DNA of 64,000 bases, from contig OX424562.1 of the NCBI GenBank assembly GCA_949152475.1, forward strand, positions 36,352,657-36,416,656, given 5' to 3'. Below, piece after piece: positions 9,004 through 63,105 of this stretch. This DNA is from Terebella lapidaria. Taxonomy: Eukaryota > Annelida > Polychaeta > Terebellida > Terebellidae. The position numbers and the translations under genes were made by a program. Under the pieces are notes generated by a model. That model did no database searches, had not been told where the DNA came from, and saw only the letters and a program-made list of their open reading frames with translations. How positions within the stretch are numbered: the stretch's first letter is position 1; each line of letters begins with the position of its first letter.

Positions 9004-9882
9004 CTAGCTCTGATTTATGCACCGAAGTGTCAGAATATATTCATACGCCACGGGACGCATTCGGAATGATGTGGTATCGTCTTTGGAAGTAAAACATATC
9101 CGGTATGTGAACGCTGTTGCATAATCGAAACGTATTATTAACAGTGAGCGCAATTATATTACGGGGTGCATCGTTTATTCTCAATTATATTTGAAACGTG
9201 ACATTCTCCTGTTATAATTAAATAAAGATCTTCGATGAAAGGAAATCTATTCCAAATCACCTTACAATCGCAGTATTTATCAACATGTTTACCACACATT
9301 TTCGTTATTAGTAAGCAAGCTATTATACCATTTCAAGGAATAATCAATAAATTCAAACTGAAATGACTGTAATATTTACCAATATCATGTAAAAACTTAG
9401 GCATCAATGTTATTTTCGGTCTGAATTCCAGTTAGCGACGTATCGTGTGACTGAATACTTGTATTATGTCAGAAAAATCAAATATCTTTTTACTGGTTCA
9501 ATTCATCATTTTGATGTATATGACATCAATATATACCTTCTAATATTATTGATAATTTACTGATCATGCACGACCCAAACATCTTCACTTAGAGACCAAC
9601 ATTGAAATATACATATACACCTGTTTCACAGCTTCGATAATCGAAATTTTGAAATTGGGTGTCTGGTCGTGCTAATTGGATGACACATGGTCCTGTAATA
9701 AAAAACAATAATCATTATTATGGTATCGTCTCGTTATCTTCGATTATATTTAAATTGCATACACTGTTGTCACCAGCTAAATCGATCATTACTCGTTTCT
9801 ACAATAAATCATTTACAGGTGCCGCGCTCCGGAGATTGCTGAACAGCTCCTGCTCCCAGGTGATAAAAAACAGACTAGAAAT

Positions 9883-12399: not shown

Positions 12400-14720
12400 G
12401 GTACCATTTGCCTTTAAAGGACCACGAGTGCTCAATCTCAAGAATGTGCCCACCGCGAATGTATAAAGTGCTCTTTGAAAGCAAAACGCGATAGGGTTCG
12501 ATTTGTATCATGAATATAGAGGAAGCCATATATGAAGCATCTTTCGATGACCTCGACTGTGACCTAAGTTGACCTTGAGTTCTCAAATCCGTGGTGATAT
12601 CCGGCAAAAATGTTCCGGCAAAATTGTATTTGGAGACAATACTCTTTCTATTACGAACATCTAGAAATCATAATATATGATAGAATATTTGGTGCTCTCG
12701 AACTTACCCTACATTGACCTCGCGTGAACATAATAAAAGTTAAATAATGGACTTAAATGATTACTCGTATATTGCAAGTCATATATGAAGCATTCGGTGT
12801 ACTTAACGCGTACGATGATCCTCATGATTTTACTCAAACTCAACATGCATGTTCACGGCAACATGTAGTGTTTGGGTGTAAACTCTTGAAGACAGAGACT
12901 ATGTATTATTATTATGAACATGCAGATATACATAATTCTATATCATACATCAAAATGTTTGAAATTATATCTTATAAAGATGTGTTTTTTCTCTGCAACA
13001 TGAATTACTTACATGTAATGAAAATGTGTATTGGCAACAGGCCGGTGGGCTACAGGACCCTTGAATTCTTGTTTGGTCTCAACACTGACATTTCCTCGGA
13101 ACCATTTTAGCCTCGGGTTTGTTTTCGTTTGGGGCGAGACACTTGTTCAGTTGTTGATTAGAGAAAGTGTATGTGGTTTCCGTAGATTGACTCGGTTTTC
13201 CCTAACGATGTGTTCATTCCGGAAAAAAAACACTTACTAATGTTAGAATATTTGAAATTAGATATACATGGATCGACAGAAGCTGGTGTCTCGAAGTTAT
13301 CAATAATTATATGACGGTGGCCTAATTATCACTCTGTCCGATATTGATTATATGTGCTATTGCCGTCGAAATAAATATTTGTGATATTCACATTTCAATC
13401 TCACAGACACTGACATAATGGGCTGTTCCGAATTGTGTTATTTGTTCTGTATATTGATAATAATCAATTGTATTATAGTAGACTGTTTGTAGTAGATTAT
13501 TGTACAGAAACACATATTGCTAGGTAATAAACTTGCCAAACGACCATAAACAAATTGTTTAGGATATTACGAAACGATCATAATATTGATCCTTAAATTC
13601 AATGCAAGCATATATGTTAATCCATGCAGTAAAAAAGTCAAAATCATGTATATTTGTGTTTATAATGCTGAATCTTCTTCACAAATGAGTCTTATAGGAG
13701 GTAGTGTATGACGATAACACATGTAGACCTAATCATTCGCATGAGAAAAATCAAGTTTTCATTTCGTTGACATTTCAATTTCAACAGAGTCTACACCATG
13801 CTTATTCGAACAACATATAAATCACATACTTCTGTTAGTTCAGTAAGAGCAGATAATGCATTTCTCTCACAAAACTGCCACTTGTGTTTACTTCAGTTTT
13901 TGAAAACTCCAGCCAACCGAGTTGTGGTTATTTCTGAAGAATAGTCGACTTCAGAATCCAGGGGTCATTAGGTGTAATTCAAAATCAGGCCCATGAATCT
14001 TTTATTCAAGAGGAAAAATAGTGTGTTGACGTGAGTTTATTCTGAGTGAATATGCACCATGTGGTACGTCCAATGAAAGCTCATAAAGGTAGTTCTGAAA
14101 GGGTGGTAGACTGTTCTGGGTTTAATGAAGAATGAACAAATTATGACATTTTCTTAAAAATTTTTTTACGCAAAACGTGTTTTTTGGGGGGTTTTTTAAT
14201 TTCGAAAAACCTACAATATTTTGAAAAGGGAAATTTGTAATGGTATTTCATTTTTATTGTTTTATTTATTTATTTTTTTTAACAATTTCATTGTTTATTT
14301 TCTCAGTGAGTTTTGTATTAATTTTTTTTAAAAAGTCATTCACGTTCTATAGCCTGATTGATTGCAGATACAGTTAAAGTGTTGATGATGAAGAGATAGC
14401 AATTCCCATGATTATAAGCTTCTACCATAAATAAACTCAGTAGACTGTCATCTTGTGATTGGATACTTACCTACCTGTCGTACATATATTTTGTTGAATG
14501 ACCTGGTTTCAGGTTTTCTCAAACTTGCTTTGAAGTTGTTGCACAACAACCACATGTCACACATTGTCCCCGATGTCACACATAGCCCCTGACGATGCCA
14601 GCGTATCTTTGGGTTTGTGTTCTAAAATGTTGTATTTTAAGTTTGTTATAGAAAAAATCAAAATCTGTTTTCATTCTGGGAAATATTTTGATACTTTTCA
14701 TTGGTGATTTTGAATTCGAC
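12400..14720. repeat. Large repeat array, copy 1 (most diverged head copy)
   Basis: This is the first recognisable copy of the array unit. Its parts line up in order with copies 2 and 3: about 12420-12600 with 14870-15060 ('GAGTGCTC', 'TG.CCACC'), 13080-13130 with 15150-15200 ('CTGACATTTC.TCGGAACC'), 13300-13640 with 15345-15600, and 13800-14110 with 15735-16030 ('GTCGACTTCAGAATC', 'GTGTGTTGAC', 'AGTGAATATGCA'). Similarity is patchy, so this copy is older than the pair that follows. A block at 14440-14700 recurs near 27710-27970. Confidence 0.6.
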
Positions 14721-21537: not shown

Positions 21538-21649
21538 GGTCTCAAAGTCTGCAATGGTAATTTTTCAACAATGTCTGCCCAAGGGGAACATTGTTTTCTA
21601 TATGTTTAAAATTTATTCCTAAGTTGGAAAGTCGATAATGAGCGAGATA

Positions 21650-22960
21650 TTAGCCATTTCTTGTTCTGACCTTGAGAATAAGGTCAAAGGTCAACTTCGA
21701 ACTTATGAGAATATTCGGCATATATCATTTCCTATATGTCCACAATTGATTCCCAAGACATAAAGTCGATAAGGAGCGAGATATTAGCCATTTTGTCCTG
21801 TGAACTTGAAAATTCGGTCGAATGTGAAATCCAAGGTTATGAGAATATTCAGCACATATCATTTCCTTTATGTCCACAATTGATTCCTAATCTCTAATCT
21901 CAATTATAAGTGAGATATTAGCAATAATATGTCCCATCATAAAGCATAAGCTAGTTTAACATGGGCCAAGTCTGGGCCAAAATGGCCCACTTTGAGCGAT
22001 TTAAGGACAAAGAAACTTAGACATGTCGCAAAGGTACAAAAGGGTGATCTTTTTAAACGATAATCTGATAACCGTCTGAACAGTTTTTGGGAAAATGTCC
22101 AAAATTGACTGTTTTTCTGACAAAAAAGGTGTCTCAAGGTCATTGAAGGTCAAATTCAAGATGAATGCTTAATTGTAAAACAGCATCACACTAAATTGTA
22201 TTTGTAGATATTCTCCACACAAATAACTCCTTAAACTTCCAATAAGTCCTACCTGTTTCATGTTCACTATGTCATCTGTTTTTTCATTCTGTCATTTACT
22301 TGCTTGACAAGCCTTAGTTTAACGAAGATTTTTTTTGTTATGATATTTTATATTCCATGCATAGTATATATGTACAAACGTTCGAATAGTTTCTCTAAAT
22401 GATTGTTCTCATATATGAATTTACGTCTGCTTAAGCCTATATCATTACAACAACTATTATCGTCTGTATATAGTTGTATATATATGTTAATTACTGTCCA
22501 TTTCTGTTGCTAATGCACTTGTACATAATACAGCGGCCTTGATATAGGGCTTAGCCCTGCTGGCCAATGTTCACTTATTTAATAAATATATTTTAAACGA
22601 AATTCAAGATCACCACCGAAACCACAATATATGAATTCCTATTTGAATGTGCCAATATTTAAGCTCTATCTTGAAGTGTTCTAGGAGTTTACTCCATACC
22701 GCTCCCATTATGAAGAAAAAATTGCGTGAAATCCCAAAATGTTTTCAAAGGGGGAAATATTTTTTGCTTGAATATCACTCAAAACGAATAGTGACTTCAT
22801 TTGGGACGAAAAGGTTTTTTTCACCAACCTGTCGAAAATTCAAAATGACCACCACATGCAGACCGGCGATTCAAGGGCAAAGAAACTTATACACTTCAGA
22901 AAGGTACATAAGAGGAATTTTTTAAAACCAAAATCTCAAAACTGATCAGTTTTTGAGAAA
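21650..22960 (+). repeat. Internal tandem and dispersed repeats of the 2.95-kb element
   Basis: Two near-copies lie at about 21705-21795 and 21840-21920 ('TATGAGAATATTC.GCA.ATAT', 'ATTGATTCC.AA', 'GAGATATTAGC'), with a further partial copy of the same phrase just before them. The stretches at 21950-22190 and 22600-22960 are related to each other and to 1820-2215. A distant relative of the first set lies near 52.66-52.72 kb. These are old repeats carried in the element's interior, not part of its ends. Confidence 0.5.
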
Positions 22961-42967: not shown

Positions 42968-45900
42968 ATACACATTCAAATGCTAGACCAGCATATCATA
43001 TCCATTTACTATCAGCAACTTCAATTTCGTTGTAATTTAATATGTAAAGGACATTATAGTTCCATGACATACAGAAGTTACAGCTGAATGCTGCACAAAC
43101 TGTCGCGCTATGATATAAGAAAGCAATAAATTGTGTACCCAAAACGCAAAGTTTTACTTGTATAATCACCTTATTAATAGTCGGATTTCTTCTCTCATTC
43201 AATTATCCATGCTAAAGAAAGTTTATGTTGCAATTTATCCCCTCGCGAACCCGCAAAATAATCATGGAGCCTAAATCCATTTTCCTTTGTATCAGGTGCA
43301 AATTCCAAAGCTGCGAACGGATGTTTTTATCTCTCATAAAACTGCTAGTAGTATTTCATTTAGGTTTTAGAATCTTCAACCAGCCTTCTCACCTCCAACC
43401 TTCTCACCTCACATAATCTATTTGGGAATAACTTAAATTTCGGTCCATGAATAATACATTTCGGAGACATGGAATAACAAGACATTCAGATATTGCAAAC
43501 CCTCGCCCCTTAGATTTTGTTACTAAAATTACAACTGATGACCTTCACATTTTCTACCTTGGCCGATAAATAGGAGATTTTGGTCGTAAGACCATCTTTC
43601 ATTTATCAAATGAATTCGCCATAGAAACATTTAAAAGCAATAATTATTAGAACAAAAGTAGAGTTATTATTATATTTCGATTTTGACCTTATTCTCGATC
43701 ATGACCTGAGATTTGGACACTGACTTTCCAAATTTAGCAAGCTTTCTCAGAGCTATGCTTGATAGAGTATTTCAATATATGTTTTTATATCATCAGTGGT
43801 TTTGAAATTACAAATAATCGAAATTTTCACAAGTCGGTGATTTCAGTGGATGACCTTTACATCTTCGACCTTGGGAAATGGTGGGGAATCGGCCATAGAA
43901 AAACAATATGGAAGGTTAATCATGGATATAAGCTGATTTATCATTTATGTGACTTTTACCTTGTATTTTGACATTGAGCTGTAAAATTACACATTATTGT
44001 TTCCATGGTCAAGGTACAACTCTTGAGCGAAAACAATTAAACAAGATTGAAAACTGGCTTCACAATATGGTAATGGGTCTCGGATTACCTGAAAATTGTA
44101 AAATCGAGACCTATACCCCCCATGCCCCTGTCAATCCCCCCCCCCCCCCAACCCCCTATTTACGAATTCAGCCGATAACCGCCTGATGAAGTCCAGTCCA
44201 TGATACTTCATACAAGTGTTATGTGTGCATACGGGTAGGTCACTTGAAGGCAGTTAGTGCGTATGTTATTGTCTGATACTTTATTACGTGTGTCTATTTG
44301 TGCACACGGGCAGGTAACTTGCAAGCAGTTAGCGTGTATGCTCATTGTGTGATTGTTCCCAGCGTTTGGCTACACATTATGTGAGTGTTCCCAGTGTTTA
44401 TGCACACGGTACGGTATGTACACGCACTCCATATGATTGTAGTAAATACAGTGTATCAACAAACGCGTTAGTGATATGTTATTAGATTTTGCCTGACATT
44501 GGACTCAGACTCCGTGTTATTAGCTCGGAATACTTTATATTAGGGTATTGGTTCCATGTTTTGGTCTGTTTCATTGTTGGCCTATCTGCTTCTGGTGTGT
44601 CTCAAATAGCATATAGAATCTAACATAAAACAAAATATGTTGAATTACATCTTCCCCGAGTCAAAATACTAATATGACATACTGAAGTAGAATGGTGCTT
44701 GTGAGGTTCGATTTACTCACACCAAAGGAGAAATGAAAAGCAACATAAAACACTTGTAACCCACACTGCTGATTTGTACCCAGTCTTCCTTGAGGCATCT
44801 TGCAACGTGGCTGTTTATTGTGGACGTGTAATTCGATACATTATGGTCGATAAAACTGCTTTGGTGAGTTGTTTTGCCTTCCAATTTCATTGACTTCATA
44901 AGCTCGTCGTGAACCAAACATAGAATTCTGGAAATTCTATACTGCTCTTTACACTTTGGGGCCGTCGACAAATTTCCAATTTAACAGTCAGCTTCGTTCA
45001 TCTTATTGACACTGACAAATACTCATCAACATATATCAACATTTATTGTGTCACTACCTACCCCGTGTCAAGACAGAGGTGCAAGACCTGGACAACGATG
45101 GACAAAGTTAAATCATAGGTCAAATGTGTCTTTGGCAGAAACGACAATATGACTTTGTTTCACTTGACATCATCAATGGTACAGCTGACTTAAGGAACGT
45201 CAAGGGCATCGATTTCATCTTGGAGTATTTCACTCGTCGAGTAGAGACCCGGAGGTCCCGGCTGGGAATCCATGGCATCATTCCAATTGTTCGAACAAAT
45301 GGTCTTCCTCCACGAGCAAGACTGTACTCAGGTTGTTCCCAATAACTGTGGTTATACTAACTGAATTTGGTCCATGTGGTGGTGATGGGATCCAGCATGA
45401 TGGTTATGGATAGTGCATCTGTAGGGAATGCTGCCAGGATGGGCACGTACCTCATTTGACACATCGACACCCAGGCCGCTGTCAGGATTGGGTGCGTAGC
45501 AACTTCTGTATTTCACGAAGCATTGCAAGTAATTCGTTATCAAAACCTGTTGTCAAGTTCTGCACAACAACTTGTTGAGCGTTTGGAAATTAACAGTTCG
45601 TGAAATAGGTGTATGGAAAATACACTACATGATTACCCAATCACGAGCGGAAAGGTTAGAGATTTGGACATTTAGCGGGAATATGAAATGCATGTATTTA
45701 ACACCCAGAGAATTACATGAATACGCTTGCTCTGCTCCTCCCCGAAAAGCGTCACAAACCATCAATAATGCAGTCTTTGTAAATGACTTTCTGCATTTAG
45801 AAGGCTAATTTCGTGACGGCATACATAACACGTGCAAATTAGAACTGAAAGTAACAAAAATACATATTTTTTTGCCAATCGATTTCTTGTTCAGTTTTAT

Positions 45901-47882: not shown

Positions 47883-48826
47883 GTCTTGAGACAAATATAA
47901 TGGGTAACCTTGACAACCTATGAAATGTCATTGATTTCTCATTGGAACATCGTAAACAAACGATGTTCCAAGCGTGAACTGTGCCTCAGTAATCGCTAAA
48001 TAATAGACTTGTTAGTTATACCATATTGATACTCTGATAATCTACCGCATGAGGGTGATTCAGGGCTGTGTGATCATCCAAAGAATTACACAAATGATTT
48101 TATTAATTAATATTGGTCAATGTTCCTTATTCTTCGTTATTGTTGTTTGTATGGTGTTTAAGTAATGTATAGTGCAATGTTTCACTGATATTTTCATATT
48201 ACAGTTTGTACATATTCGGAGTCACTCCGTGCGTCCCATGTGTGTATTAGCAATGAAATATCATTGATATATATCGCATCCAATGGAATCATTGTTTTAA
48301 GGAAAGGAAGGAAAAATCATGAAAGTTCAACATTGATGTGTATTGATCAAAATTTCACATGGGAACACAATATCACACATTGCTACAAAAATGTCTCGAA
48401 TGGCGTATATGCTATAAATATGTGTCAAAAATATTTTATCCAAAGACAATCTGAAAGTGCTTTATTAAAGTCTTGTTCAATCTTATGTCTATACATGTCT
48501 ATAATGATGTCTATTTATATTGGCCAGACTGAAAGGAACAAACGATATGTTATTTCAAACGATATGTTGTTTGTAGTATATATGTATGGTGTGACGTGAC
48601 TGGTTTTAATCACAGCCCTCGTGTTACAAGTTATGTTCTTGTGAATACCTGGGATGTGTCTTATTGTCAATGATTATGTTGTATGCATATGGCACATCTC
48701 GAATACAATGCAATACAATAACCTGTCGGTCCTAACGCTCTGTAACTCAAAATAAGGCGATAACCAATGAATCAAAACAAAATTTCCTAAGTGTGATATC
48801 TGAAAGCTATGTGTCATATTTAAGGA

Positions 48827-48971
48827 ATAATGTATAGATTTGGAGTAATTGTCGCACAATAAACTTCGAGGGCAAGGTGATATGGTCCCGAGACGCCGAA
48901 GGCGTCGAAGGCTATATCACTTGTCCCGAGAAGTTTATTTTGCGGACAATTACGACAAATCTATACATTAT
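48827..48971. mobile_element. Hairpin-type MITE
   Basis: The 145-bp stretch is a near-perfect inverted repeat: it begins AATAATGTATAGATTTGG and its reverse complement begins AATAATGTATAGATTTGT. Both arms contain 'GTAATTGTC' and 'AATAAACTTC', and the centre has 'CGCCGAAGGCG'. No clear target duplication was found; family unknown. Confidence 0.6.
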
Positions 48972-50875
48972 TTCTATTCTAACATGGTAAATGATTCTGA
49001 GCAAACAAACATTACCATGGCTACATGTGTTTGTTGCGGTCGTGACGTTTTTGTAGGCCGTTGCTCCTGAAAACGTAAATCTGATATAGGCCCTAGGGCC
49101 GTGTATCAACTGATATAACACCTTTTGAAATGTCTGAAATGCCAAGAGCGCTGTGACGTCACCATGTTAGAATATACGATGAATAACCCATAAGTTGCTA
49201 CATTATGAGACCAAACAGAGCACAATTTTCAATGTTCTAAGTGGCACATAATGGTCCAGTCGTACGTGCCTGAAATCTACCGTGTCGTGTTCTAGAGGTT
49301 CATTGACCGTGCTGTGTTTTGTTGACACTAGAGAGCTTTAGTTGCCGACGTTTAACTTAGAACTTCAACTTCGGCGGGCGTTGAAGTTCCAAGTTGAAAC
49401 GAAGCGAGAGGTTTAGTTGGAGGTTGTACAGCAACATACAACCTGGTACTAGTATTAATAAATACATTTTCTAGTTTATTCAGTCTGAACTTTCATGTTA
49501 AGCTGTATGTTTGATGTATTTCTGGTTGTACTATTTTTCGGTATATGTGGGAGAATATTACCAACAATTTGAAGGAATTTTGAAGAAGTGCAGACATACT
49601 CCATTGTCTAATTCAATAAATATACCAGATAAAGCAAAACGTATGGCAATATTCACCGTTCTATTCATCACAGAATCACACGAGATATCCACATATATTT
49701 CAGTGATTGTAACCAGTAAAAAATATATTACCAAAGTTGAATGCTTTGAAACATTATTTATTCACATGTGAAACGAAGTGAGAACGCTAACAAATAGATT
49801 TTCTTGTATTTTATTTTCAATAGAACATGTATCAATATTCAAACATCCCATTTGGAAACAACGAGAAATCATAGGACAATCAATACAAAATGACAATAAT
49901 TTCAAATATCAGTATCCATAAACATCTGACGGCTGTTTGATAACCAAATTACGGATAGGTCATATATTCTGGAATGTGAGGCACGCACGAATATGCCACG
50001 TCAAATAGCATACATTCGTCTAATGAAACCTGAGTTTCCAAAGACAACTTACTAGTATTACGTAACACATAACTACGTTGGTTTATTTCAGCCACTTTTA
50101 TGCTAATCATGTTGAAAACAATTCAAACATATTACACACTAAGCAAATAGGTTGTTACTTGTAACAAACGTTTCATTCACGGAGCAAATAAATGTGGCAG
50201 AATTAAAATATTGTTGTGACGTCACACCATTGTCTGAACAGTGGATTCGTCCGCACGAATCCACCGTTTGCCCCATACGAATTCATTGGTTCACTGATGC
50301 ATGTAATGTCATGTTGCACAAGTTCATAATCAGTAATCTCAAGATCATCTATTGTTGAATTTCCAACATCGTTCAGAATGTTTGCAGTATTAAATGCGAC
50401 CATACTATCCACGATTTCATTTAAAAATGTGTCCAAATTATCTGCCATGTTGAAAGTTAATGTCAACAAGTCGATGTCCAGTAACAGAATGCGAGAATGT
50501 GTGTGGTATAGGTCACTGGTTCGCTGTGTTTTGAGTACAATATATTAAAACTCACCATCATCCAATGGAGATGTCCATTGGAACACGTTCCACGCATCAA
50601 ACCCTGCTCCTTAATACTACTCGCTCACTGAATGAATGCATTTAACCCGTGTGCCACCTTTTTAATCCCTATTGAATACATAGAAGAATGCGCGAGATAT
50701 AGTACTTGGGCCATGTTGAGTTGAGCAATCTAAATTCACTGGGTTGCCGGTTATTTATGAATACATCTTTGTCATGCTTGACTTGCAATAGATCTAACAG
50801 AAACAATATACATGTGTTCATGTGTACAAGTAATCTGTTGGTCGCATTGTGATTGTAAGAGCAATATTTTAAGTC

Positions 50876-50974
50876 GGATAAAACACTCGAAACAATGAAT
50901 TCGTTCACGGATTCACTCGCGCGTTGCGCTCGTGAATTCGTAGGCACGAATTCACTGTTTCTCGTGCTTTATCC
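50876..50974. mobile_element. Hairpin-type MITE
   Basis: A 99-bp inverted repeat starting GGATAAAACACTCGAAACA, with its reverse complement starting GGATAAAGCACGAGAAACA, around a 'GCGCGTTGCGC' centre. The arms carry repeated 'GAATTCGT' words. A shorter relative lies at about 50240-50270. Family unassigned. Confidence 0.6.
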
Positions 50975-51088
50975 ATGACATAAATCAGCGTATTAATCAA
51001 CAATTGGATTTTTCTACAAGTCCATCCATTACGTTATAGGAGAGTGCAATTTGAGTACTGCACCAATACACCATCGAGTACATTCTGG

Positions 51089-52132
51089 TCATGCCAAGTA
51101 GGTATCCAGCGATGGAGCACCTAGCCCAAAGTATGTGCCCGTTTGTGACCCATGAAGACACGTGTGGCAGTTTGTAAGTAATGCCCCCACTATATAATAT
51201 TTAGCAACTGGCTGAAGCAAGATCTTTAGATTTTTCCTGAAATCCAGGAATGCGAATTGTGACACTATTTTGCCGAATCCCCACTCAACACATTCTCTGA
51301 CTGATGACATACTTCTGTTAAATTCTCTCTGTTCTTCTGTCAATGCCGCACCACGAAATGGGCACAATAATTCTGCCCTGAAAGGGTACGCAGCGTCTCC
51401 ATACAACGCATAACGATTCCCTGTAGGAGACAGTGGAAGGGTTTCTAAATACTGTAAAACTCCAGATTCTCTGAGCATGAATGCATCGTGGCGTCTGCCC
51501 TCAATTGGTCCAAAGATGTTGCCAACCAACCCATTCGGAAACACTGTCGACTGAAATTTTAGGCCATGAACTCGTTTGTGACCAGAGAAATATTCCTTTT
51601 GGTTCTCACAAGGCCTGCATACAGGCATAAGAGTACCATCTATAAATCCGACAACGTTTTGTAGAGGATACAAAGATCCAATGGCTTCAGAATATAACTG
51701 CAAGTAAGGTTCATGGAGGAAGGGAAGATCGGGGTCACGAATAAGGTGTCCAAATCTGTCATATACATGATTCAGGGCATAACCTATCAGCACACTTAGT
51801 TCAGTCTCTGAACGCCCGAATATTTGTTGCAAGTCAGTCAAGCGGTTCGGGTAAGCAAGACGTCTAAGCAACATTGCTAAAGCAATAACTCCACTTGTGC
51901 AACTGTTGTTGGCACCGACAACTTTATCTGGAAAATGTAGCAAATCACATAACCGATATAGATCAGCTTTATGGAAACGAAATAACTTCTTACAGTCCTC
52001 ATCTGAATAGCTATCCAGACAAAATTTGACATCACGCCATCCGTCGTTGTTTTCTGAGCCATCAGCAGCCATCCACAGCAAGGCATCATCGTCAGAACAA
52101 TTGGCTAACAATAGGAGTACATCTAAATCCAT
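51089..52132 (-). CDS. HARBI1-like PIF/Harbinger DDE transposase (347 aa, intact)
   Basis: A single open frame of usual family length. Residue numbers use the start at 52132 (MDLDV), 12 codons inside the longest frame, because the upstream codons are low-complexity and a possible acceptor (TTTTTCTTAAAAG) lies just before it. Visible parts are an N-terminal region, a helix-turn-helix-like segment (TDLQQIFGRSETELSVLIG, about 99-117) and the DDE_4 nuclease domain with D165 (VGFIDGTLMPV), D246 (YALYGDAAYPF) and E283 (ECVEWGFGK). The D2-E spacing of 37 is as expected. The RHD before 'AFMLRESG' is also typical. The enzyme cuts and joins DNA at element ends, usually with 3-bp targets. The frame has no break, so it is either a young copy or a domesticated HARBI1-type gene. 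The Myb-like gene lies 0.85 kb upstream on the same strand. Confidence 0.92.
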   Translation of the reverse strand: MDLDVLLLLANCSDDDALLWMAADGSENNDGWRDVKFCLDSYSDEDCKKLFRFHKADLYRLCDLLHFPDKVVGANNSCTSGVIALAMLLRRLAYPNRLTDLQQIFGRSETELSVLIGYALNHVYDRFGHLIRDPDLPFLHEPYLQLYSEAIGSLYPLQNVVGFIDGTLMPVCRPCENQKEYFSGHKRVHGLKFQSTVFPNGLVGNIFGPIEGRRHDAFMLRESGVLQYLETLPLSPTGNRYALYGDAAYPFRAELLCPFRGAALTEEQREFNRSMSSVRECVEWGFGKIVSQFAFLDFRKNLKILLQPVAKYYIVGALLTNCHTCLHGSQTGTYFGLGAPSLDTYLA

Positions 52133-52982
52133 ACCTTTTAAGAAAAATATATCTATATATATATACACAGGTAAGGCGTCTAATTATATCTAACAGTTTA
52201 TCGCAAAAGATGTATCATCTAAAAATAAACGTATCCTGTTGGAAAATGCTCCAATATTTCTGGATATATTTTATGCTATGGCAAAATACAACACTTGTAG
52301 TGCCCAGAGTACCCTAGATACTGGTTCTGGATACGAATCACAAGTGAAAAAAACACTGAGATGTCTCAATGTACTCATAATGTTACCAGTTTAGTATTAT
52401 AACTGCTGAAACATGAATATTTTTGGAAAGGATTGCAATAATTCATTGACTTCACTTTTCATGTACTACAGTAGTACTAGTAGTTTGACCATTTGATGAC
52501 ATGTTAGCAAGCAACAAAAGTACACGCTTTCCGGTCGCCAACGACCGCGAGGTTTATCCCCCTGATGCCCCAACATCCATGTTGCCCGAAATACATATGT
52601 TCATAAGGACAAAATATCAATGTCGATAAGTGCTTTTCAGGTTAAAATCAAGGTCATCAAAATATTTGGCATACATCATTCCCTATTCGTGCATGAGTGA
52701 TTCCCAAGTTGTAACCTTTTAATATTAGAATTGGTAGAGATCTGCAACTTGTAGAGTTGTTGTATATAATAATAACATCTCTAATCTGGCAGAAACGAGG
52801 CGACACGTTGTACACAAAATCATACTGCAATTTCGACAATAATGCAATCTATATCACTGTATCATATGACATCATATCTGTATTACATGAAATAAACCCA
52901 TATCAATATAGGAAATACTTTTCATTACACTGAACAATAATTTTTCAGCTGTGAAGTGTCAAACATATACACAGATGAACAA

Positions 52983-55228
52983 TTAAGTATGCTTGGCACT
53001 AAGTTGAACCAGCAGCTGCATCAGTGCGTCTCGCTCTTTCGTCTGTCCTTCCACTTTCTGTCTTTCCAGCGCAAGCTCTTCACGCCTGAGATCAATCTCA
53101 CGCTCGCGTACTTCAATCTCTCGATGATGCTTCTCCTGCATAAACGTCAGAACACTGGCCTTCGAAACCCTTTTGGATGGTCCATCAACCTTTGTGAAAA
53201 TTGATGTTACAGTTCTTTGAAATTAAGGTGTGAATTTCTCAAAAAACACACCAAGTGTGCATGCTATTTTAAACTGAAAACCAGACCTTCCAGCAACTTA
53301 TTATAGTAAGAGGTACTATGGTAACCATAAATGTACGTCTGTGTAAGTAGTCAGTATGCTACAACAGGAACATGATAAAACTAGACGTCAAGGCCTAAAG
53401 ATGCCTTGTGGCATTTCGACTGAAATCAGGCCAAGGTCAAAGTTCATACCCTAAGACATATTTGTCTGGGGCACTGAGTTCGAAAATAGCGTTCGTTTCT
53501 CTCTACGACGTACCGGTTCCGAGATATCGACGAAAACGAATATTTAGCCAACTCAAAAATTAAGGTCAAAGTTCAATCATAGACGTGGAATCAATACCCA
53601 GTATTAAGTATTCCGAGCAAACAAAACAAGGTCCGTTATCCAATCTCATAGTCCGGGGACAGAAAGTCATATCAGGCATACGAAGTGAGAGAAAACAAAA
53701 ATGACAGGGAAACTCATGAACCCCCGTAAATGGCCATCAGGAGGTGAAATCAGGTGTTCCGGAAAGAGTGAGCATTTCCTGAAAATGAAATAAAACTCCA
53801 TAGACATGTTTTTCTACCGTGGCTAGTCAAAAAATAACGTCCGTTTCGCAATACGACACTGTTTCTGAGATATCGCCAAAAACGAAACATGCTGACTCAA
53901 CAACAAAAATTGAGATCAAGGTCAAAGTTCATCCATAATACCCTTAGACATGTTTGTTTAGGGCTACGAGTCCGAAAATAACGTCTGTTTCGCTCTGCGA
54001 CGCACCGTTTCCGAGATATGCCCGAAAAAGAAACATGCCGACTCGGCAAAAATTTTGAGGTCAAGGTCTAAGTTAATCCATAATACCCCTTAGACGTGTT
54101 TGTCCAGTCCCACGAGTCAGAAAATAATGTCCATTTTGCTCTACGACACACCGTTTCCGATATGGCCGAAAATGAAAAATGACGACTCTGCAGGAATGCC
54201 TAGTGCAACGAGTAAGAAAGTAACGTCCGTTTCGCTCTACGACGCACCGTTTCCAATATATGGCCAAAAGTGGAAAATGCCGACTCAGCAGAAAAAAAAT
54301 TTGCCCCATAGCCAAGGTCAACTGATATACTCCTAATACATGTTTGTCTAGTCCCACGACATTTTCCAAAATGAGATCAGATATAATGAAGGGCCTGTAT
54401 TCATATGTACCATCAGTCTTTTCTTGGATTCCGAAAGGGTCTCCATAGCAACAGATCTAATGTCGCGATCCTTGGGGTGGCTTTCATCAGAGTCAGTGCC
54501 GTCATCTGGATCTACACCCAACTGCTGGAGTTCGGTTGCCTCAGCGGCCAATTGTTTTACCTCGTCATATATTTCGTCATCATTTCCGGATCTAAAAATG
54601 AAAGAAACATTTTCAAAAATGCATACACGGTGCAATGATAAAGCAATATTAAACATTAGTTGTCTTCTGGTTTCATTCGATCCTACTAAGTTTGAACACC
54701 AGGACCTAATCTTGAGGATTTAAAGTAAAAACATAAGGCTCATCCCAATACGCTCTCATCCCTCCTTGTAAATTTGAGTCTAATAATTTCTGGCATCTGC
54801 TACTGTTTTACCGCGCTTTTAAAAATCAAATTTCACATATGTAACAGAGTTGGCTATCTTTGTGAAGCTAATCAATCAACTATGACATTTTGGTAATGAT
54901 TCATGACTGCAAAAATGTCATCAAAAGAAGTGGGCGATATCGTACAATCACAGACACTGCATGTTTATATTTACCTTTTGAATGCCCGTACATCCTGTTT
55001 TTTCCATTGCTTCAGGATAAGCTTCGTGTGGTCTTGGCACGCTCTTGATGTAACATTTTTTTCCATGAACTCAGGGAGTTGTTTCAGTTGACTGCAGATT
55101 TTCTCCCATGGTTTTTTTTCATTATCCAGTCTCAGGAGTTTTTTCCTGCTGTAGGAGTATGGGTTAGTGCTGACAACCTCTCTAAGCAGCAGCAAGTTCA
55201 TCTTCCCGGTGAACTTGATTGCAGTCAT
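52983..55228 (-). CDS. Myb/SANT-MADF-like protein, the PIF/Harbinger partner (three exons, 213 aa)
   Basis: Exons are 55228-54975, 54591-54411 and 53189-52983. Phases agree at both joins (2, then 0), and the first join makes an Arg codon at KRSGNDDE. Exon 1 encodes a basic Trp-containing fold (about residues 5-85; PWEKICSQLKQL, LILKQWKK) of the Myb/SANT-like or MADF kind. Exon 2 is acidic (DPDDGTDSDES). Exon 3 is a charged coiled coil (REIEVREREIDLRREELALE), ending LLVQLSAKHT. This layout is that of the DNA-binding second protein of Harbinger transposons, which binds the transposase and carries it to the nucleus and the element ends; NAIF1 is the vertebrate host relative. The donor of exon 1 (GTAAAT) is good, and that of exon 2 (GTACAT) is weak. 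No break is seen. Confidence 0.82.
53400..54340 (+). repeat. Degenerate tandem repeat in intron 2 of the Myb-like gene
   Basis: Five copies of a phrase around 'AACGTCCGTTTCGCTCTACG' then 'ACGCACCGTTTCC' and 'GCCGAAAA' lie near 53487, 53831, 53980, 54125 and 54219. Most are separated by 'AAGGTCAAAGTT.ATCCATAA' and 'TTAGACATGTTTGT' words. Spacing is about 145-150 bp in the middle copies and irregular at the ends. It has no coding sense. The 'GAGATAT' and 'AAGGTCAAAG' words recall repeats at 21.65-21.90 kb. Confidence 0.75.
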
Positions 55229-55814
55229 CTGTAATGCCTAATGGCAAAACATAATTTTGTTAACTACTGGTAGTCATCTACTCAGTCAAATTGAACAGAC
55301 ATTTTGAAACTAAAGCCAGTCACAAAGGGAGATGAATCGTTTGCTTTATATCCATTAAATGAACACCCAGGCCCCCTGAGTCCCCCAATGAGTATCACCA
55401 TGAAACTGCCACCAAGCTCTCAGTCTCAGGTTTATCCCATTTGGGTATACATGAAGTACACCCATTTGGTGACATATATATATACCATTTTGGTATATAT
55501 GCCACCAAATGGGATTCTTCCCAACTGCTCATTGATTTTTTTATCATCTTCATTTCTATTTACTTTTTTATATATATAAATCTACAGATCTATCCAATAT
55601 TCGCATTTTCTTTCATTTTTAATGATTTTTTTTTTTTGGGGGGGGGGTACCTTGTGTATCCAGCAGGTGGAAATACTCCGAGGGTTGCTCAAACTTGCTC
55701 CAAGTCCAACTTACCAGTAGAGTTACTGAAAGTTGAAAAAACAAATTAGACCCCCTGTTGATCTACAAAAATTAAAAAAAATTAGTGCTGGAATCTACAT
55801 ATAGCCTTTATAGG

Positions 55815-56424
55815 CCTAGACCTACTCATGATATAGAACTATAACTCTGATTTTTTTTAACTCGTTTACACCGATTTTTGATGATATCTTTGCGATGCTG
55901 AAAGGTATCGTTCTAGAACTTGGCATACTTCACCTTATACACAAACGGCATTTTTCTATCAAATTCCAGACTTCTATCGCAATAATTGAAGAAGTTGGCA
56001 ATCTACCCCAATGTTAAATTTCAGCCAAAAACGGGATATCGAGAATCTGAGCTTATTCGAGGATTTGATCCTGTTTACATCCATCAGGATTCGGAAGTAT
56101 TGTTGTAATTTTAAACTAGAAGACACATTGGGGTGTATTCTATACAAACATGTTGATTTTGAAAGATTGCACCACTCCAAAATCTAGCAAATGCACAAAA
56201 TTGTGTGCGGACCCAGAAATTAAATGACAGGTGTAAATTTAACATTGGGGTAGATTGCCAACTTTTTCAACTTCCATGATAGAAGTCTGAAATTCGGTAA
56301 ATAATTGCCGTTTGACTCCTGGGTGAAGTATGTCAAGTTATAGAACGATAGCATTTAGCATCGCAAAAATATCAGCGAAAAATTGTGTAAACGGGTTAGA
56401 AAAATCAGAGTATAGAGGTCTAGG
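55815..56424. mobile_element. Palindromic MITE with ~200-bp inverted arms
   Basis: The left arm (from CCTAGACCT at 55815) and right arm (ending AGGTCTAGG at 56424) are inverted copies over roughly 200 bp. Shared words include 'CTCTGATTTTT', 'CGTTTACAC', 'TTGCGATGCT', 'TATCGTTCTA', 'CATACTTCACC', 'CAGACTTCTATC' and 'GTTGGCAATCTACCCCAATG'. The centre (about 56040-56220) is unique and non-coding. A target duplication is not clear. By arm divergence it is older than the 2.95-kb element. Confidence 0.8.
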
Positions 56425-58920
56425 TCAAATTTGTTACTAGATTAAAACTATAAATGATCACTTTTTGTCATTGATTTTCGGGTGTGGTCGTTTACCCACC
56501 GTGTTTCAATCATAACGTTACCAACCATTTTTTTTTCGAAAATCACATTTTAAAACACACTGGCAAAAAAAGATCTAAGATTCCATATTCGCCCTGCAAA
56601 GCAATGCTGAACTAAGGACTGTTTCGATCACGATTCAATCTAAGCCCAAGGTCATGACCCCTGCCTGTCAAGACTCGGAGGACAAGTCACAAGGACACAC
56701 GCCGTGCGAGGCGGCAACTTTGTCGGCTCATTTTCGCCGCTCAAAACTACCCCATTCAACTGTACAGTTCTAATCTAGTGACAAAAAGGCTTCTAGAACG
56801 TTATTGAATGAATTTTATAGCTTGCTAAGATCAGTGTGCATGATAAATGAACCATACGTTCGACCAAATTTCCCGTTTTACCTTTCACGTCTTGCTGTGC
56901 CTTTTGCCGTTCCAACTTTGAAGTAGCACGCGCAAAAAATCACGTTACCACAATAATCTGTGACGTAGTACACGGTGGACAATCAGGTTTCAAGTGCAAC
57001 GCGATTAACCAAAGGTCTCTATTGTGTTTTGTTTTGTTGACATAAATCATGCTCCATAGCTATCTATACCTAGTCATATCGTATCACAGGTATTTTTTCT
57101 TGAAATTTCCATCGTTTTGTGTGAACATTGAAGATTAAAATAAAAGGGGTGGTAGTAGTCCAGACAAGTCCATTCAAGGCATAGTATATTTCGAGAACAC
57201 AGCAATTTTACTTGCATACTTTGCCATGGAAACACGCATATAATAATACACATGTGACTGTTATGGCCCACAAAGTGCGAGCTCAATCGATCAACAATAT
57301 TGCAAAAACCAACCCAAGGAAAGCCGTGAAAATTCATCCTGGAAGATTTGAGACAGAGAAGCAACTGACGGCTGAAAATCACTTCCCGCTAAATGCCAGT
57401 GTCCAACCTGTAATATGGCTGAACAGCACCAGAGAGATTCATAGATTCCCCAGTGATATTAAATCTTGGGAAATTACCTCCGGAAAAAAAAATAGTGATT
57501 GATCACAAATTCAAAAACATTACTGGGTGATTGATCACAAAATCAATGTTTTGGATCAGTATAATTAGGTACAAGATATAAACGATATTACACAGGGTAA
57601 CTGCTTTACGCTGCTTAATTTTTATTCCACCAGTTCTGGCGCTTTTTTCATTCACTTCATAAAATCTACATGCGTCGATATCCACAATTGTGATTGGAGT
57701 CATCCATTGTATTTGTTTGGCCAAATATTACACGAATATCTTTCCAAGTTTTATTCCAGTTGAAAGTCGTAATATATCTTCATATCTACTGACCAAGAAA
57801 TAGAAGACTAGCAGTTTTACCTGATGGCTTTTGACACATTCATTCTATTACCGGATAACCACACAGATTGGTGGCCGCTGATTGGATATGTAGCTTCCAC
57901 GAATCACAAGAAATCCTCTCTTGATTGCTCCAAGTCATGCTGTGGCTATATGTCCACTAGCACTGTTGGATATAGCCTAAACTCATATCATGTATATGAC
58001 ATACGTATTATCAAAATGTATGCCATTATCACGTTCCATACCGATAAAAAGTTCAACTGCATCATCAATCAAACATCCTAGTGTTGTCAACAAAATCTTG
58101 TATATGCGGTAAAAATATATTATCCAATGGGTAGGCACTTGCATGAGAATTTCAAACTCCACCAATTATATGGAAACTTTGTTATCAGATAGCCCTAAAT
58201 GTTTGAAATACAACACTTTTGGAATTAATTTTGTGAATATCTATAGTAGTTTTCGAGATATTGGAATTGTATTGTTCGGAAATCGGTATATTTCGCTCCA
58301 TACAAATAAATATGAGAAGAAGTCGAAAATCGTGCAAAATCGCCGTTTTTTCCGAAAAATTTAAAGATTTTCATTCATAAATAAATTTTCGTGAAAGAAA
58401 AACCATACAAACTATATATGTACGGAATCAGTGGAACAAGGCCCATCATAATATCACAAGATAAAGCTGTTTACATAATAAAGGTGTCTATCCTATGACA
58501 AGGACTACTTGGTATACAGTACCCTAAAAAAATCTGAGTTCACCCATTTCTTGTGACATTTGTTCCGTACATGTATGTTACTAGAAACTAGACATTTACA
58601 AGAAACTAGACCTTCTACAATATATTACAAGCTACAAGTTACAAGCAAACATAGAGAAAAAAATCATATTGAACATACTTTGCACTGGTTGGTAAACCAA
58701 TATTCGTGGTTTTAGAAATGTTTAGATCTTTTGCCAGGGCTGCAGTCAATATCTGACACAATATTCTATTCTGACATGAACATTATTATTGTTAGATGCA
58801 TCTGTACATTTCACAGAACCGGAGCAAGATCACCATACAGTGAATCAACAATAAGGTTACATCTGGTAACATTTTCATCCACTGCCTCATCAGGGCCTTC
58901 ATTTACAGTGTAGTATGACA
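56425..58920. other. No gene recognised; GC-richer patch near 56.65-56.77 kb
   Basis: Intergenic. The patch at about 56650-56770 has more CpG than its surroundings ('GCCGTGCGAGGCGGCAAC') and could be a promoter for the minus-strand Myb-like gene 1.4 kb away, but nothing proves it. The plus-strand frame 57212-57502 is not matched to any family. Confidence 0.4.
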
Positions 58921-61900
58921 CTACATAGGTACACTTCTTGTTTTTTTTAGTTTAATGGCAGCACCGTGATGAACAACATCAGAACCAACGTCCTCCAAAT
59001 ACCAATTGTGGAGAAAGTTTCTATTGACGAACTCTGCTGGCCTGTTAAATAAAGTTAAAATCAAACTCTCTGATTCCTGTGGGATATCCTTGAAGAAAGA
59101 CTTGACTTGATCCAGAGTGACATTCGTGGTCCCTTCCAAGTCCTTTACACACTTCTCGATCTTGCGCCTCTCCGAGTCATCTTTCTTCCGCGACTTTTGT
59201 GTCAGCCTGATTAAAATGATACAAACTTCGTGTAATGACAACCTTCTTCATGGTACTTCCTAGACTCAATATATTGATACAAATATCAACAATGAATGAT
59301 ATGCTGACAATACCTCTTCATGAGTTCTGCTTCCATTTCTTTTTGTCGGCTTTTCTTCAGACCTGTCACTTTTGATGCTTCCTTTGCTGCATGCTGGATG
59401 GTCCTCTTCTGCTCTTCGCTTGTCTGCTTCCCCAACCAGCCTAGTGTGTCGTTAGCTTTCGCCTTCACTTTTGCTTCTGCAAGACCCAATAGAATCAGTG
59501 TATGAAATTGAGCAAGAGACGAATGAAATATTTTCTCACATTGTAAGCATTGTTCTCAGAAAATATTGACCAATTTGACTTCACTATTTGATGCTTGTTA
59601 TCTGGTGATCGATGTTTGTTGTTGTTTTATATTTATTGCTGTTATTGTTGTTACTTATGACCTTGTTATGTCATCATTTAAGGAGGTGTTGTTGTTAATT
59701 TGATTGTTACATTGACACACATATTTACATATTCATCAAAAACATTGAATCATGAACTTTTGAAACATTGAAACATTGAATCATGTATTTGTTCCAAATG
59801 TATCTTACCAATGAAATCAAGACAAGCATTCGGTGCTCTATGCATCTGGGAGTCGGTCATCGCCATAATTCTCTCGCTTTACATATTGTGTGTTGGGGCT
59901 AGTCTGGCATCTTCCTTCTGTTGAGGAGTGAATGCATCTGCGAGGTAGTTTTTTAGTTGTCGGCTGCAAACTTCCAGGAAGGCTGTGCAGAGACCTTCCA
60001 CAGTTGTGAGATCCAAACTGTCAACATCGCGTAGGGATGATAGAACGGGGTCTGCCAAATCTAGTGACCGACCAAACACATCTCCAGTTCTTGTCAATAG
60101 ACTGCCTGGCTCCTTTTGGGGCTCTTCTAATGCTGATACACACTTCTTTAGGTATGGTACCATATCTAAGTTGCAGCCTTGCTCCGTGTAGAAAATGTTC
60201 ATCCATGGGCCCGTCAGAATCTTCCCAAAGAGTCCTAGAATTCGGAGTTGCATCAGTATCTGGGGGCTTTGCAGGTCTTTTGCCAGTGCTGCCGTCAAAC
60301 CACCTCTGGGTGAACAGAACTTGGTCAGGAACACCAGCATTTGCTCGCGACGATGAACGTGCACTCCTGCTAAGTGAAAGAGTATGTGTAGGCGGTTGCC
60401 CACATACCGTGGGAAAAGTTTCAACGGAATACACCGATCTCTACAGAAGGTTTTGAAGCTGGAAGGATCTCCTTTTCCTGCTTTGTACCTCATTTTGGAC
60501 ATGCCTTGCACAAAGTTAACAGCAGCACTTTCTTTTCCAAAACAAGAACCAGTGACGCCGGTGGCCTTCAACACGGATCTAGATTTGATAGCCAGTGAAT
60601 CCAATGGATGCAGATTGCAATGGAGTTCGACTAGGTTCGGTGAGAGCTCATCTTTCAATTTTTCAGCGATTAACTGCTACCCTGTCTGATATGCAGCTTG
60701 TTATGTTTGCTTTGATTTTAGAAAGTACTGCTGATGGTTGGTCTTCAGACCATCCAGCGTATGCCTGAGCAGCATCTTTGAGAGCAACTCCAATACTAGT
60801 ATGTTTGGTGTAGTCATCCGTTTTTCCCCCAGCTAGCTGTGCCACACCAAGGCTTACGTAGTCACGTGCATTAGTACCAGTGTCAGATGTAGCAACATGT
60901 ACCTCATTAATATGACGACCGTCAACCTCCGTGGCATCCCAAGATATGTTACATTTGGAACTACTTGCGAGGGCTTCACCAGCTTGGATGTCCGATAAAA
61001 AACCCATTTCGCGTGCCATTCTTGTCACTGTCGTTGAATGTGGAAGTGCCTCGAAACGTTTTCCTGTGAATTGCTCCACCACATACCCAACAAGTCCAGC
61101 TGCGTGATCCACAGGCCACTGACATGCCAAGGCGCGATAGATACATTTTCTGACCGTTGCGCTATACATGACACCCTCCTTTGTTGGAATTGTCGTTTCT
61201 TGGCATACTGTGCACACTGAACTGTTCATCTGACACTGCGAAAGTTCATCTCCCAAGTAAGACACTCTTTCTCTCAAAGCTCCTAACTTCGCTTCACATG
61301 CTTCATGGCGAGTGTCACTGATTTCTTTCTTCCATGCCTGACCTAACTGTTTTCGATAATAGTGCCGTTGCGAGGCAATGATAGATTTAAGTTTGTCAAT
61401 TTCTTTCCGGAGATCCTCGTCAGTGAGCAGCTTCTGTTTTGAGCGGAGTTGTCTCCTGACGTCCTGGTACTTGCGTTTCCACAATTCTACTCGCCGACAT
61501 TGTCTGTTCAATTCTCGACTAGGTCTATCTGTCGTTTTCGCGCTTGTTTCCACTCTAGCGTTGAATTCGAGTTCCCGTTTCAGTATGGTATTCTCTTCTT
61601 GCAGTCGAGAACAATCAGACAGAAGTGAATCATGCATCCTCTTGTAGACTCCTGCAGCGTCATTGTTGTCAGTTTCCTGAACCAAGGAAGAATCTACCGA
61701 ATTTCTTGGTCTTCTTTGAGATGGAGGGGTGCTCGGTGGTGATAACAGAGAAGGAAGTAATGGGAATTGTTGGGAAAGGTAAGTGGCAAGGGCTCGATGA
61801 TCTCGTCGGTTCTTCATCAATTTCTGTCTTTTTTCTTTCACATCTGTAGCAAAGAATATACATACCTATAATCATAACAATGTCATCCATGTTATGAAGT

Positions 61901-63105
61901 CAAGGTTTGTATTATTGAATCACAAATTCTTAATATGTGTAAATTAACTTTTTTCTCTCGAGTATATTCTTTACAGGAATATGAAATCATATATGTGCGC
62001 AATAAGGTTCCTACTGGACATTGTATGTTCAATAGGATGATACAGTAATGTTTCATTATTATTACCGTATTGTGAATCATGCATCCTCTTGTAGACTCCT
62101 GCAGCGTCATTGTTGTCAGTTTCCTGAACCAAGGAAGAATCTACCGAATTTCTTGGTCTTCTTTGAGATGGAGGGGTGCTCGGTGGTGATAACAGAGAAG
62201 GAAGTAATGGGAATTGTTGGGAAAGGTAAGTGGCAAGGGCTCGATGATCTCGTCGGTTCTTCATCAATTTCTGTCTTTTTTCTTTCACATCTGTAGCAAA
62301 GAATATACATACCTATAATCATAACAATGTCATCCATGTTATGAAGTCAAGGTTTGTATTATTGAATCACAAATTCTTAATATGTGTAAATTAACTTTTT
62401 TCTCTCGAGTATATTCTTTACAGGAATATGAAATCATATATGTGCGCAATAAGGTTCCTACTGGACATTGTATGTTCAATAGGATGATACAGTAATGTTT
62501 CATTATTATTACCGTATTGGTCCTGATAGTAGCATGTTCCCCCAATAGTAGCACGTCCCTCTTTCCCCCAAAAATGTTCACTTTACATATTGATCCTTGT
62601 ATTTCACTTCATGTTTCTAATAAAATCTTGTGAGTGTTTCAATTCACATACTTATCATTTGAATCAAAATAAATGGAATGTAAGGCTACAGCCTACAGGT
62701 ATGTTATTCAGTATGTTTCCTAAATTTGACCTCAAGTTCCAAAGATACTATTAGGACCAATAAGGTACTAGCAATATATCTGTGGTATATCAGTCATTTA
62801 CATGTCCCCTATTGGATTCATGACTGTCATCCTTACTGGACTCATATTGTTATGCGATTGCCTCTTTTTTGGACTGCTTTATTTTTTACATGTATAATAA
62901 CCTGATTTACAAATGATTGTATTATGTCAAGATGCATGCAGGAGTGTATTCTTACTCCTAAGTTAATTTCAGCATTCAAGATCACCATAAAATTGCTATT
63001 ACAAGGAGGAATATACCTGATTTGTTGTTGATGTTGTATTAAAAACTTACATTTACATGCTGCAGCAAGCCGCGCAGCATTTAATGGGGTACCTGCTGAT
63101 GCCAT
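58921..63105 (-). pseudogene. Multi-exon transposase-like gene (RNase H-fold, hAT-like motifs), interrupted
   Basis: Proposed exons are 63105-63051, 61843-59809, 59476-59314 and 59206-58921, with matching phases (1, 1, 2) and GT/AG ends. The large exon encodes a basic start (KEKRQKLMKNRRDHR), a coiled coil (EENTILKRELEF), a CxxC pair (SVCTVCQE), then ISWDATEVDGRHINEV, SCISDRVAVN and LHCNLHPLDSLA. The two Asp motifs followed by Cys/His recall hAT-type transposases. The tail has QMHRAPNACLDF, a lysine-rich helical region (KKSRQKEMEAELMKR) and 'FNRPAEFVNRNFLHNWYLED'. Two breaks are seen: a single-base frame change near 60660-60675, just after 'ISDRVAVN', and an in-frame TAA at 59881-59879. Either could be a sequence error, a sign of decay, or both. 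I do not recognise a named family. No terminal repeats were found. Confidence 0.6.
61625..62518. repeat. Perfect 447-bp tandem duplication covering exon 2 start and intron of the transposase-like gene
   Basis: Units 61625-62071 and 62072-62518 appear identical throughout. Each holds the acceptor and first ~73 codons of the large exon plus about 230 bp of upstream intron. The proximal copy of the exon (62290 down to 62072) is followed by 'CAATACG|GTAATA', which could serve as a donor. Its phase (1) would allow splicing in frame onto the second copy at 61843. Identity over introns as well as exon points to a very recent event or an assembly duplication. Confidence 0.95.

Follow-up and report, generated by a model that had tools for sequence, protein, structure and literature searches.

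An intact Harbinger-type gene pair without clear transposon ends in a 64-kb stretch of Terebella lapidaria DNA

A stretch of 64,000 nucleotides from Terebella lapidaria (here called the window) contains a Harbinger-type protein pair, which consists of a DDE transposase gene and an adjacent partner gene on the same strand, both with intact reading frames. The pair is probably an ordinary copy of a PIF/Harbinger DNA transposon that carries a two-gene module and whose ends are cryptic or were recently lost (probability about 0.6; this figure, like the weights that are put into words for the other explanations below, is a judgement and was not computed). A less likely possibility is that the host has adopted the pair as genes of its own. 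The gene pair spans positions 55228..51089 on the minus strand in the order partner to transposase and measures 4140 bp from the ATG of the partner gene to the stop of the transposase gene (Table 1). The assignment to the PIF/Harbinger (PHIS) kind applies to the protein pair and is made via the transposase; as an element, the locus did not display the end features that were searched for.

Table 1. Coordinates of the gene pair and of the repeats within and around it, given as positions of the window.
Feature	Position	Strand	Description
DDE transposase, PIF/Harbinger (PHIS) type	51089..52132	-	intronless, 347 aa and a stop codon; D165, D246, E283
Partner gene, exon 1	54975..55228	-	ATG; helical N-terminal region predicted; Myb/SANT-like by eye only
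Partner gene, exon 2	54411..54591	-	part of the in-frame join
Partner gene, exon 3	52983..53189	-	stop; C-terminus charged and heptad-like, read by eye as a coiled coil
Diverged repeat units of about 146 bp, intron 2	53405..54348	+	six matches, five of them aligned
71-bp stretch between the genes	52638..52708	+	related (E 2e-6) to a tandem unit of 134 bp at 21628-21887 of the window
Foldback repeat 5' of the partner gene	55834..56422		two arms, each about 188 nt long, with 78-81% complementarity; does not frame the gene pair

The preliminary description of this DNA had claimed a full-length DDE transposase with all three catalytic acids, and this claim was borne out. The transposase ORF is uninterrupted and intronless, and the Pfam family DDE_Tnp_4 (PF13359) matches residues 164-321 of the protein over profile positions 1-158 of 158, thus over the full model, with an E value of 5.6e-26. 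A second Pfam match, to DDE_Tnp_1 (E 2.6e-4), lies under the cut-off of that family. The spacings within the catalytic triad are 80 and 36 residues, and D165, D246, and E283 are shared without change by the transposase and the two Deinococcus transposases with which it was aligned. The latter derive from Deinococcus plasmids, for which all three matching records showed 33-36% identity over 33-40% of the transposase; two of these three records were used, solely to place the catalytic residues. In NCBIfam, one IS5 model was matched with 26.8 of 140 bits, which is far under its cut-off (E 3.1e-6), and IS982 appeared at E 0.18, while two transposase families were found in PHROGs at E 0.024 and 0.39. 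A PDB sequence search with the transposase yielded no match, and its structure model, which was predicted without an alignment, reached a pLDDT of 35 and was left out of the fold search.

The search for relatives was extended to prokaryote and viral contigs. Among the prokaryote contigs, 20 and 137 pattern stretches were examined, none of which was a relative. No usable relative was obtained from 6 and 180 stretches of viral contigs, where the lone match listed (L001) covers 44 residues with 36% identity (E 1e-4); the ORFs of this viral contig look phage-like and unrelated, and the match was taken as chance. One phage record matched with 30% identity (E 2e-5); like the bacterial transposases, it is distant. 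For the partner protein, six stretches of viral contigs revealed no relative. Among the mollusc and bivalve papers listed there was no clear match, which does not prove absence. Within the window the transposase is present in one copy and all other tblastn matches had E values of 4.6 or worse, whereby 64 kb is too small for copy counting.

With regard to the upstream gene, which had been described as a three-exon gene for a Myb/SANT-MADF-like protein, the exon structure held, whereas the domain label did not find a counterpart among the listed Pfam matches. The three exons lie on the same strand as the transposase gene and join in frame to a protein of 213 aa, with GT-AG introns. Judged by eye, the borders of intron 1 are good and the donor of intron 2 (ATG|GTACAT) is weak. 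An acceptor-like CAG is located immediately 5' of the partner ATG and an in-frame stop starts 12 nt upstream, which suggests that a non-coding upstream exon may exist. Neither the whole partner protein (E up to 1) nor exon 1 alone (E limit 10) matched Pfam, and the first 110 residues gave one unrelated family at E 0.12 with a limit of 10; the list of weak Pfam matches is incomplete, as program filters remove most matches above about 0.1. The PDB sequence search with the partner protein was without a match at E values up to 5, and PHROGs returned one unknown family for exon 1 (E 0.27). A structure model of exon 1 predicted without an alignment (mean pLDDT 50, i.e., low confidence) places helices at residues 8-21, 28-35, 40-48, 52-55, and 61-78, and its best Foldseek match had an E value of 7.3. 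The C-terminal coiled coil is a reading of the sequence by eye. An identity of the partner as a Myb/SANT or MADF protein is therefore unproved, with the label being based on the content of helices, the position of the gene, and its charged C-terminus. However, Harbinger partner proteins are described as strongly diverging and hard to detect by similarity (PMC9179366; PMC9710019), so that the missing Myb/SANT match is weak counter-evidence. The two-protein PIF/Harbinger system that had been proposed for this locus is supported by the DDE_Tnp_4 family membership of the transposase and by the two-gene layout.

Terminal inverted repeats were searched for in five scans with shuffled controls, which included each class of target site in the Harbinger-like (PHIS) superfamily, and in two further scans without controls. 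Apart from one weak candidate, largely no terminal inverted repeats with a target duplication were found that stood clearly above chance, and the earlier statement that neither is visible thus stands within the power of the scans. Target sites are listed in PMC4482050 for five PHIS groups and for Spy, and each of these site classes was tested with 3-kb flanks and 20 shuffles. The TWA duplication of 3 bp (PIF/Harbinger) yielded 5 candidate pairs against a shuffle mean of 6.65, the ANT duplication (Pangu) 10 against 11.0, the CWG duplication (NuwaI) none against 0.95, and the TNA duplication (NuwaII, with the outer C and G of its target left out) 11 against 12.25. Counts somewhat above the shuffle mean were obtained for the AT duplication (ISL2EU; 59 against 51.1, top score 12 with shuffle tops of 9 to 13) and for Spy-type AAA/TTT sites (8 against 5.1, top score 8 with shuffle tops of 7 to 12), but in no target class did the top score beat the highest shuffle. 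When any 3-bp duplication was allowed, the best pair was matched by 28, 45, 42, and 83% of 60 shuffles with flanks of 0.5, 1, 2, and 3 kb, respectively. For a gapped alignment of the flanks that required no duplication, the share of shuffles that matched the score was 100% at 0.6 kb, 93% at 1.2 kb, 93% at 2.5 kb, and 29% at 4 kb, each out of 100. Around the transposase gene alone, the best scores were matched by 67.5% of 40 shuffles for 2-bp and likewise by 67.5% for 3-bp duplications; around the partner gene alone, these values were 12.5 and 100% of 40 shuffles, and for the pair with flanks of 7-8 kb they were 13 and 13% of 15 shuffles. When positions 48000-60000 were compared with themselves by blastn, no left-to-right inverted match appeared. 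An inverted-repeat listing without controls comprised the best 25 (longest) of 235 inverted pairs.

The weak candidate consists of the positions 48175/56385, where 18 of 20 bases match and the duplication is TG. Its score of 15.0 compares with a top score of 14.5 in 20 shuffles with flanks of 5-6 kb, and a version shifted by four bases has an AT duplication and a score of 12. The score was matched by 2 of 15 shuffles in the wider scan and by 29 of 100 in the gapped scan. As the right end falls within the foldback repeat, these positions are unlikely to be the ends. The foldback itself was rejected as a transposon end, its arms pairing only with each other. Also rejected was the pair 51044/55296 (10 of 11 bases matching, duplication AGA), whose score was matched by 28% of 60 shuffles; the length of 4253 bp that it delimits would fit the PIF/Harbinger family.

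The power of the scans was simulated and amounted to 1.0 for perfect repeats of at least 15 bp with an exact duplication. With 5% divergence per arm it was 0.14-0.70 for repeats of 15-30 bp, varying with length and span, and repeats of 12 bp were never detected. Since the scans are blind to 12-bp repeats and lose power fast with divergence, it is plausible that ends were missed. Neutral decay of the two genes was simulated in 800 runs with an assumed indel/substitution ratio of 0.1, whereby only the reading frames were considered and splice sites were left out. With indels, both genes were intact in 35% of the runs at 0.5% divergence, in 11% at 1%, in 1.5% at 2%, and in 0 of 800 at 5%; at least one gene was broken in 89% at 1% and in 98.5% at 2%. 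Without indels, both genes were intact in 65, 45, 20, and 2.4% of the runs at 0.5, 1, 2, and 5%, respectively, and at least one was broken in 55% at 1% and in 80% at 2%. Because neutral decay so soon breaks at least one gene in these simulations, we consider it probable that the locus either is young and has ends that are short, imperfect, or recently lost, or is old and maintained by selection.

Some indication of age might come from the repeats. The five aligned of the six intron-2 units, with the fragment 53417-53465 left out, share 68-82% mutual identity and thus differ by 18-32%. With nhmmer, the remainder of the window gave no further occurrence of the unit of about 146 bp, although two short stretches between the units match elsewhere in blastn (53744-53781 with 3529-3493 and 53583-53627 with 44559-44514). 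If the intron-2 repeat and the intergenic 71-bp stretch formed at this site, the locus would be older than neutral genes would last, which would favour domestication; if they were carried along by a mobile ancestor, they would be uninformative on the age of the locus. RNA families were not detected in the window at gathering score. A neighbouring pair of ORFs at 59.9-61.9 kb appears to carry a frameshift and a partial duplication.

According to the preliminary description, either the element is young and its ends were overlooked or both genes were domesticated jointly, and both readings survive the present analysis. An ordinary transposon is favoured by the full-model DDE_Tnp_4 match together with the DDE triad and by the 4140-bp two-gene layout, which fits published elements (PMC4482050), and the intact ORFs, given the simulated neutral decay, favour a young one. 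In the division of roles described for the family (PMC9710019), the partner binds DNA near the transposon ends and mediates nuclear entry of the DDE transposase, which cuts and rejoins DNA at the ends; the same would then apply here. The ends may be short or imperfect, or they may have been lost recently, leaving a copy that is young and immobile. For this locus, we infer that the two proteins interact and that the partner binds DNA, as well as what state the ends are in. It counts against an ordinary transposon that an intact, recently mobile element should usually show its ends and that a perfect repeat of at least 15 bp with its duplication was detectable, as well as that the window holds a single copy, although 64 kb does not suffice for counting copies. 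Against youth speaks the divergence of the intron-2 units, by which this repeat is old, unless it was already carried while the element was mobile. A possible, though unlikely, alternative is co-domestication, in which the host would have kept both genes of one old insertion whose ends were lost, and the two proteins would now bind DNA in the nucleus as a complex, in the manner suggested for HARBI1 with NAIF1, ALP1 with ALP2, and DPLG7 with DPM7. Intact genes and the lack of clear inverted ends or a target duplication are two criteria given for such cases in PMC9710019, and both were observed here, as far as the scans could detect ends and apart from 48175/56385. The rapid breakage in the decay simulation with indels points in the same direction, and so do the diverged repeats in intron 2 and between the genes, provided that they arose in place and did not come with a mobile ancestor. 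Co-domestication of PIF pairs is moreover reported as recurrent in insects (PMC9710019). On the other hand, the three catalytic residues are all retained, although domestication does not need them. It is conceivable, though unlikely, that an independent co-domestication in an invertebrate lineage kept all three catalytic acids and produced a host-owned, possibly still DNA-cutting complex without a transposon to serve.

It is improbable that the locus is an older dead copy in which both genes are still open by chance. The missing clear ends would agree with this, and the ORF pair at 59.9-61.9 kb hints that decaying sequence may exist near the gene pair; however, the survival of both genes at 2 and 5% divergence was rare in the simulations with indels and less rare in those without them. 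Very improbable is an accidental neighbourhood of two genes that do not belong to one element. Here it could be argued that the partner has no known domain family, so that it is identified as the second Harbinger protein from its position and appearance. Against this stand the common strand, the span of 4.1 kb, the helical N-terminus, and the charged C-terminus, which together correspond to the layout of the superfamily (PMC4482050), and the end scans around either gene singly gave nothing clear. If the pair is an ordinary transposon copy, which we favour, it represents a further member of a widespread superfamily. If it has been domesticated, it would add one more lineage with joint capture of both Harbinger proteins to the vertebrates, plants, and insects for which such capture is known and in which this reading already has published parallels (PMC9710019), and it would strengthen the view that transposase and partner tend to be recruited together.

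Among the known systems, the IS5-type bacterial transposases of the Deinococcus plasmids share the catalytic domain family with the transposase but are distant; they are bacterial, and no such partner gene is annotated beside the two loci examined. Spy elements are distinguished by a single long ORF and by insertion at AAA/TTT without duplication as class criteria, and the five tested elements in PMC11304231 each contain a single ORF of about 700 aa, whereas two ORFs and a transposase of 347 aa are present here. In the case of ISL2EU, neither protein of the pair has a THAP or YqaJ Pfam match, and no AT duplication with inverted ends stood out from the shuffles. The Pangu and Nuwa candidates in PMC4482050 mostly have two ORFs, and Pangu and NuwaI are each reported there from one mollusc, among other animals. 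Pangu resembles the present pair in that its second ORF is given without a detected known motif (PMC4482050), as is the case for the partner, but here no ANT, CWG, or TNA duplication with inverted ends rose above the shuffles. Transposase and partner have been retained together in HARBI1/NAIF1, ALP1/ALP2, DPLG7/DPM7 (Drosophila), APLG/APM (Anopheles), and LPLG2/LPM2 (Lepidoptera) (PMC9710019). The Anopheles pairs rest on single copy, synteny, phylogeny, dN/dS, and expression (PMC9710019); APLG/APM are like the pair described here in being adjacent intact genes that are reported without inverted ends or a target duplication (PMC9710019). From the PIF/Harbinger elements, such as zebrafish Harbinger3_DR and the rice elements, the pair differs by having no clear terminal inverted repeats or TWA duplication and by the unconfirmed Myb/SANT domain of its second protein, and its proteins, with 347 and 213 aa, fall short of the lengths given in PMC9710019, about 400-500 aa for the transposases and 300-400 aa for the partners. 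It agrees with them in the DDE_Tnp_4 domain with its triad, in the small second gene adjoining the transposase gene, and in the span of about 4 kb, autonomous PIF/Harbinger elements averaging about 4124 bp (PMC4482050).

Besides the two Harbinger genes, that is, the DDE transposase gene and its three-exon partner gene upstream on the same strand, the window contains the repeats and further ORFs listed in the table. The diverged units in intron 2 of the partner gene are confined to this intron within the window. Two other, short stretches of intron 2 have matches elsewhere in the window, namely 53744-53781 with 3493-3529 (89% over 38 bp) and 53583-53627 with 44514-44559 (83% over 46 bp), and these are probably dispersed host repeats. 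The region between the two Harbinger genes contains a relative of the 134-bp tandem unit (52638-52708; E 2e-6), to which 12507-12588 is also weakly related (E 0.011).

Upstream of the partner gene, at a distance of about 600 bp, lies the foldback repeat. All four CpG hairpins are located downstream of the transposase gene; judged by eye, they are alike in style but differ in sequence.

The two long ORFs look like a single gene with a frameshift near 60670, and the 5' part of the pair overlaps an exact tandem duplication of 447 bp (61625-62519). The Pfam search with this ORF pair yielded no family at or above its own cut-off; by eye, it may be another transposon-type gene.

Repeats and ORFs in the window
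Feature	Position	Strand	Details
Rhodopsin-family G-protein-coupled receptor ORF	9808-10932	plus	uninterrupted; 7tm_1, E 1e-47
Tandem unit	21628-21887		134 bp
CpG-containing palindromic hairpin	48823-48975		10 CpG
CpG-containing palindromic hairpin	49349-49401		5 CpG
CpG-containing palindromic hairpin	50237-50268		4 CpG
CpG-containing palindromic hairpin	50868-50984		12 CpG
Diverged repeat units	53405-54348		~146 bp; intron 2 of partner gene
Foldback repeat	55834-56422		arms ~188 nt, 78-81% complementary
Long ORF	61865..60663	minus	frame differs from next ORF
Long ORF	60676..59879	minus	frame differs from previous ORF
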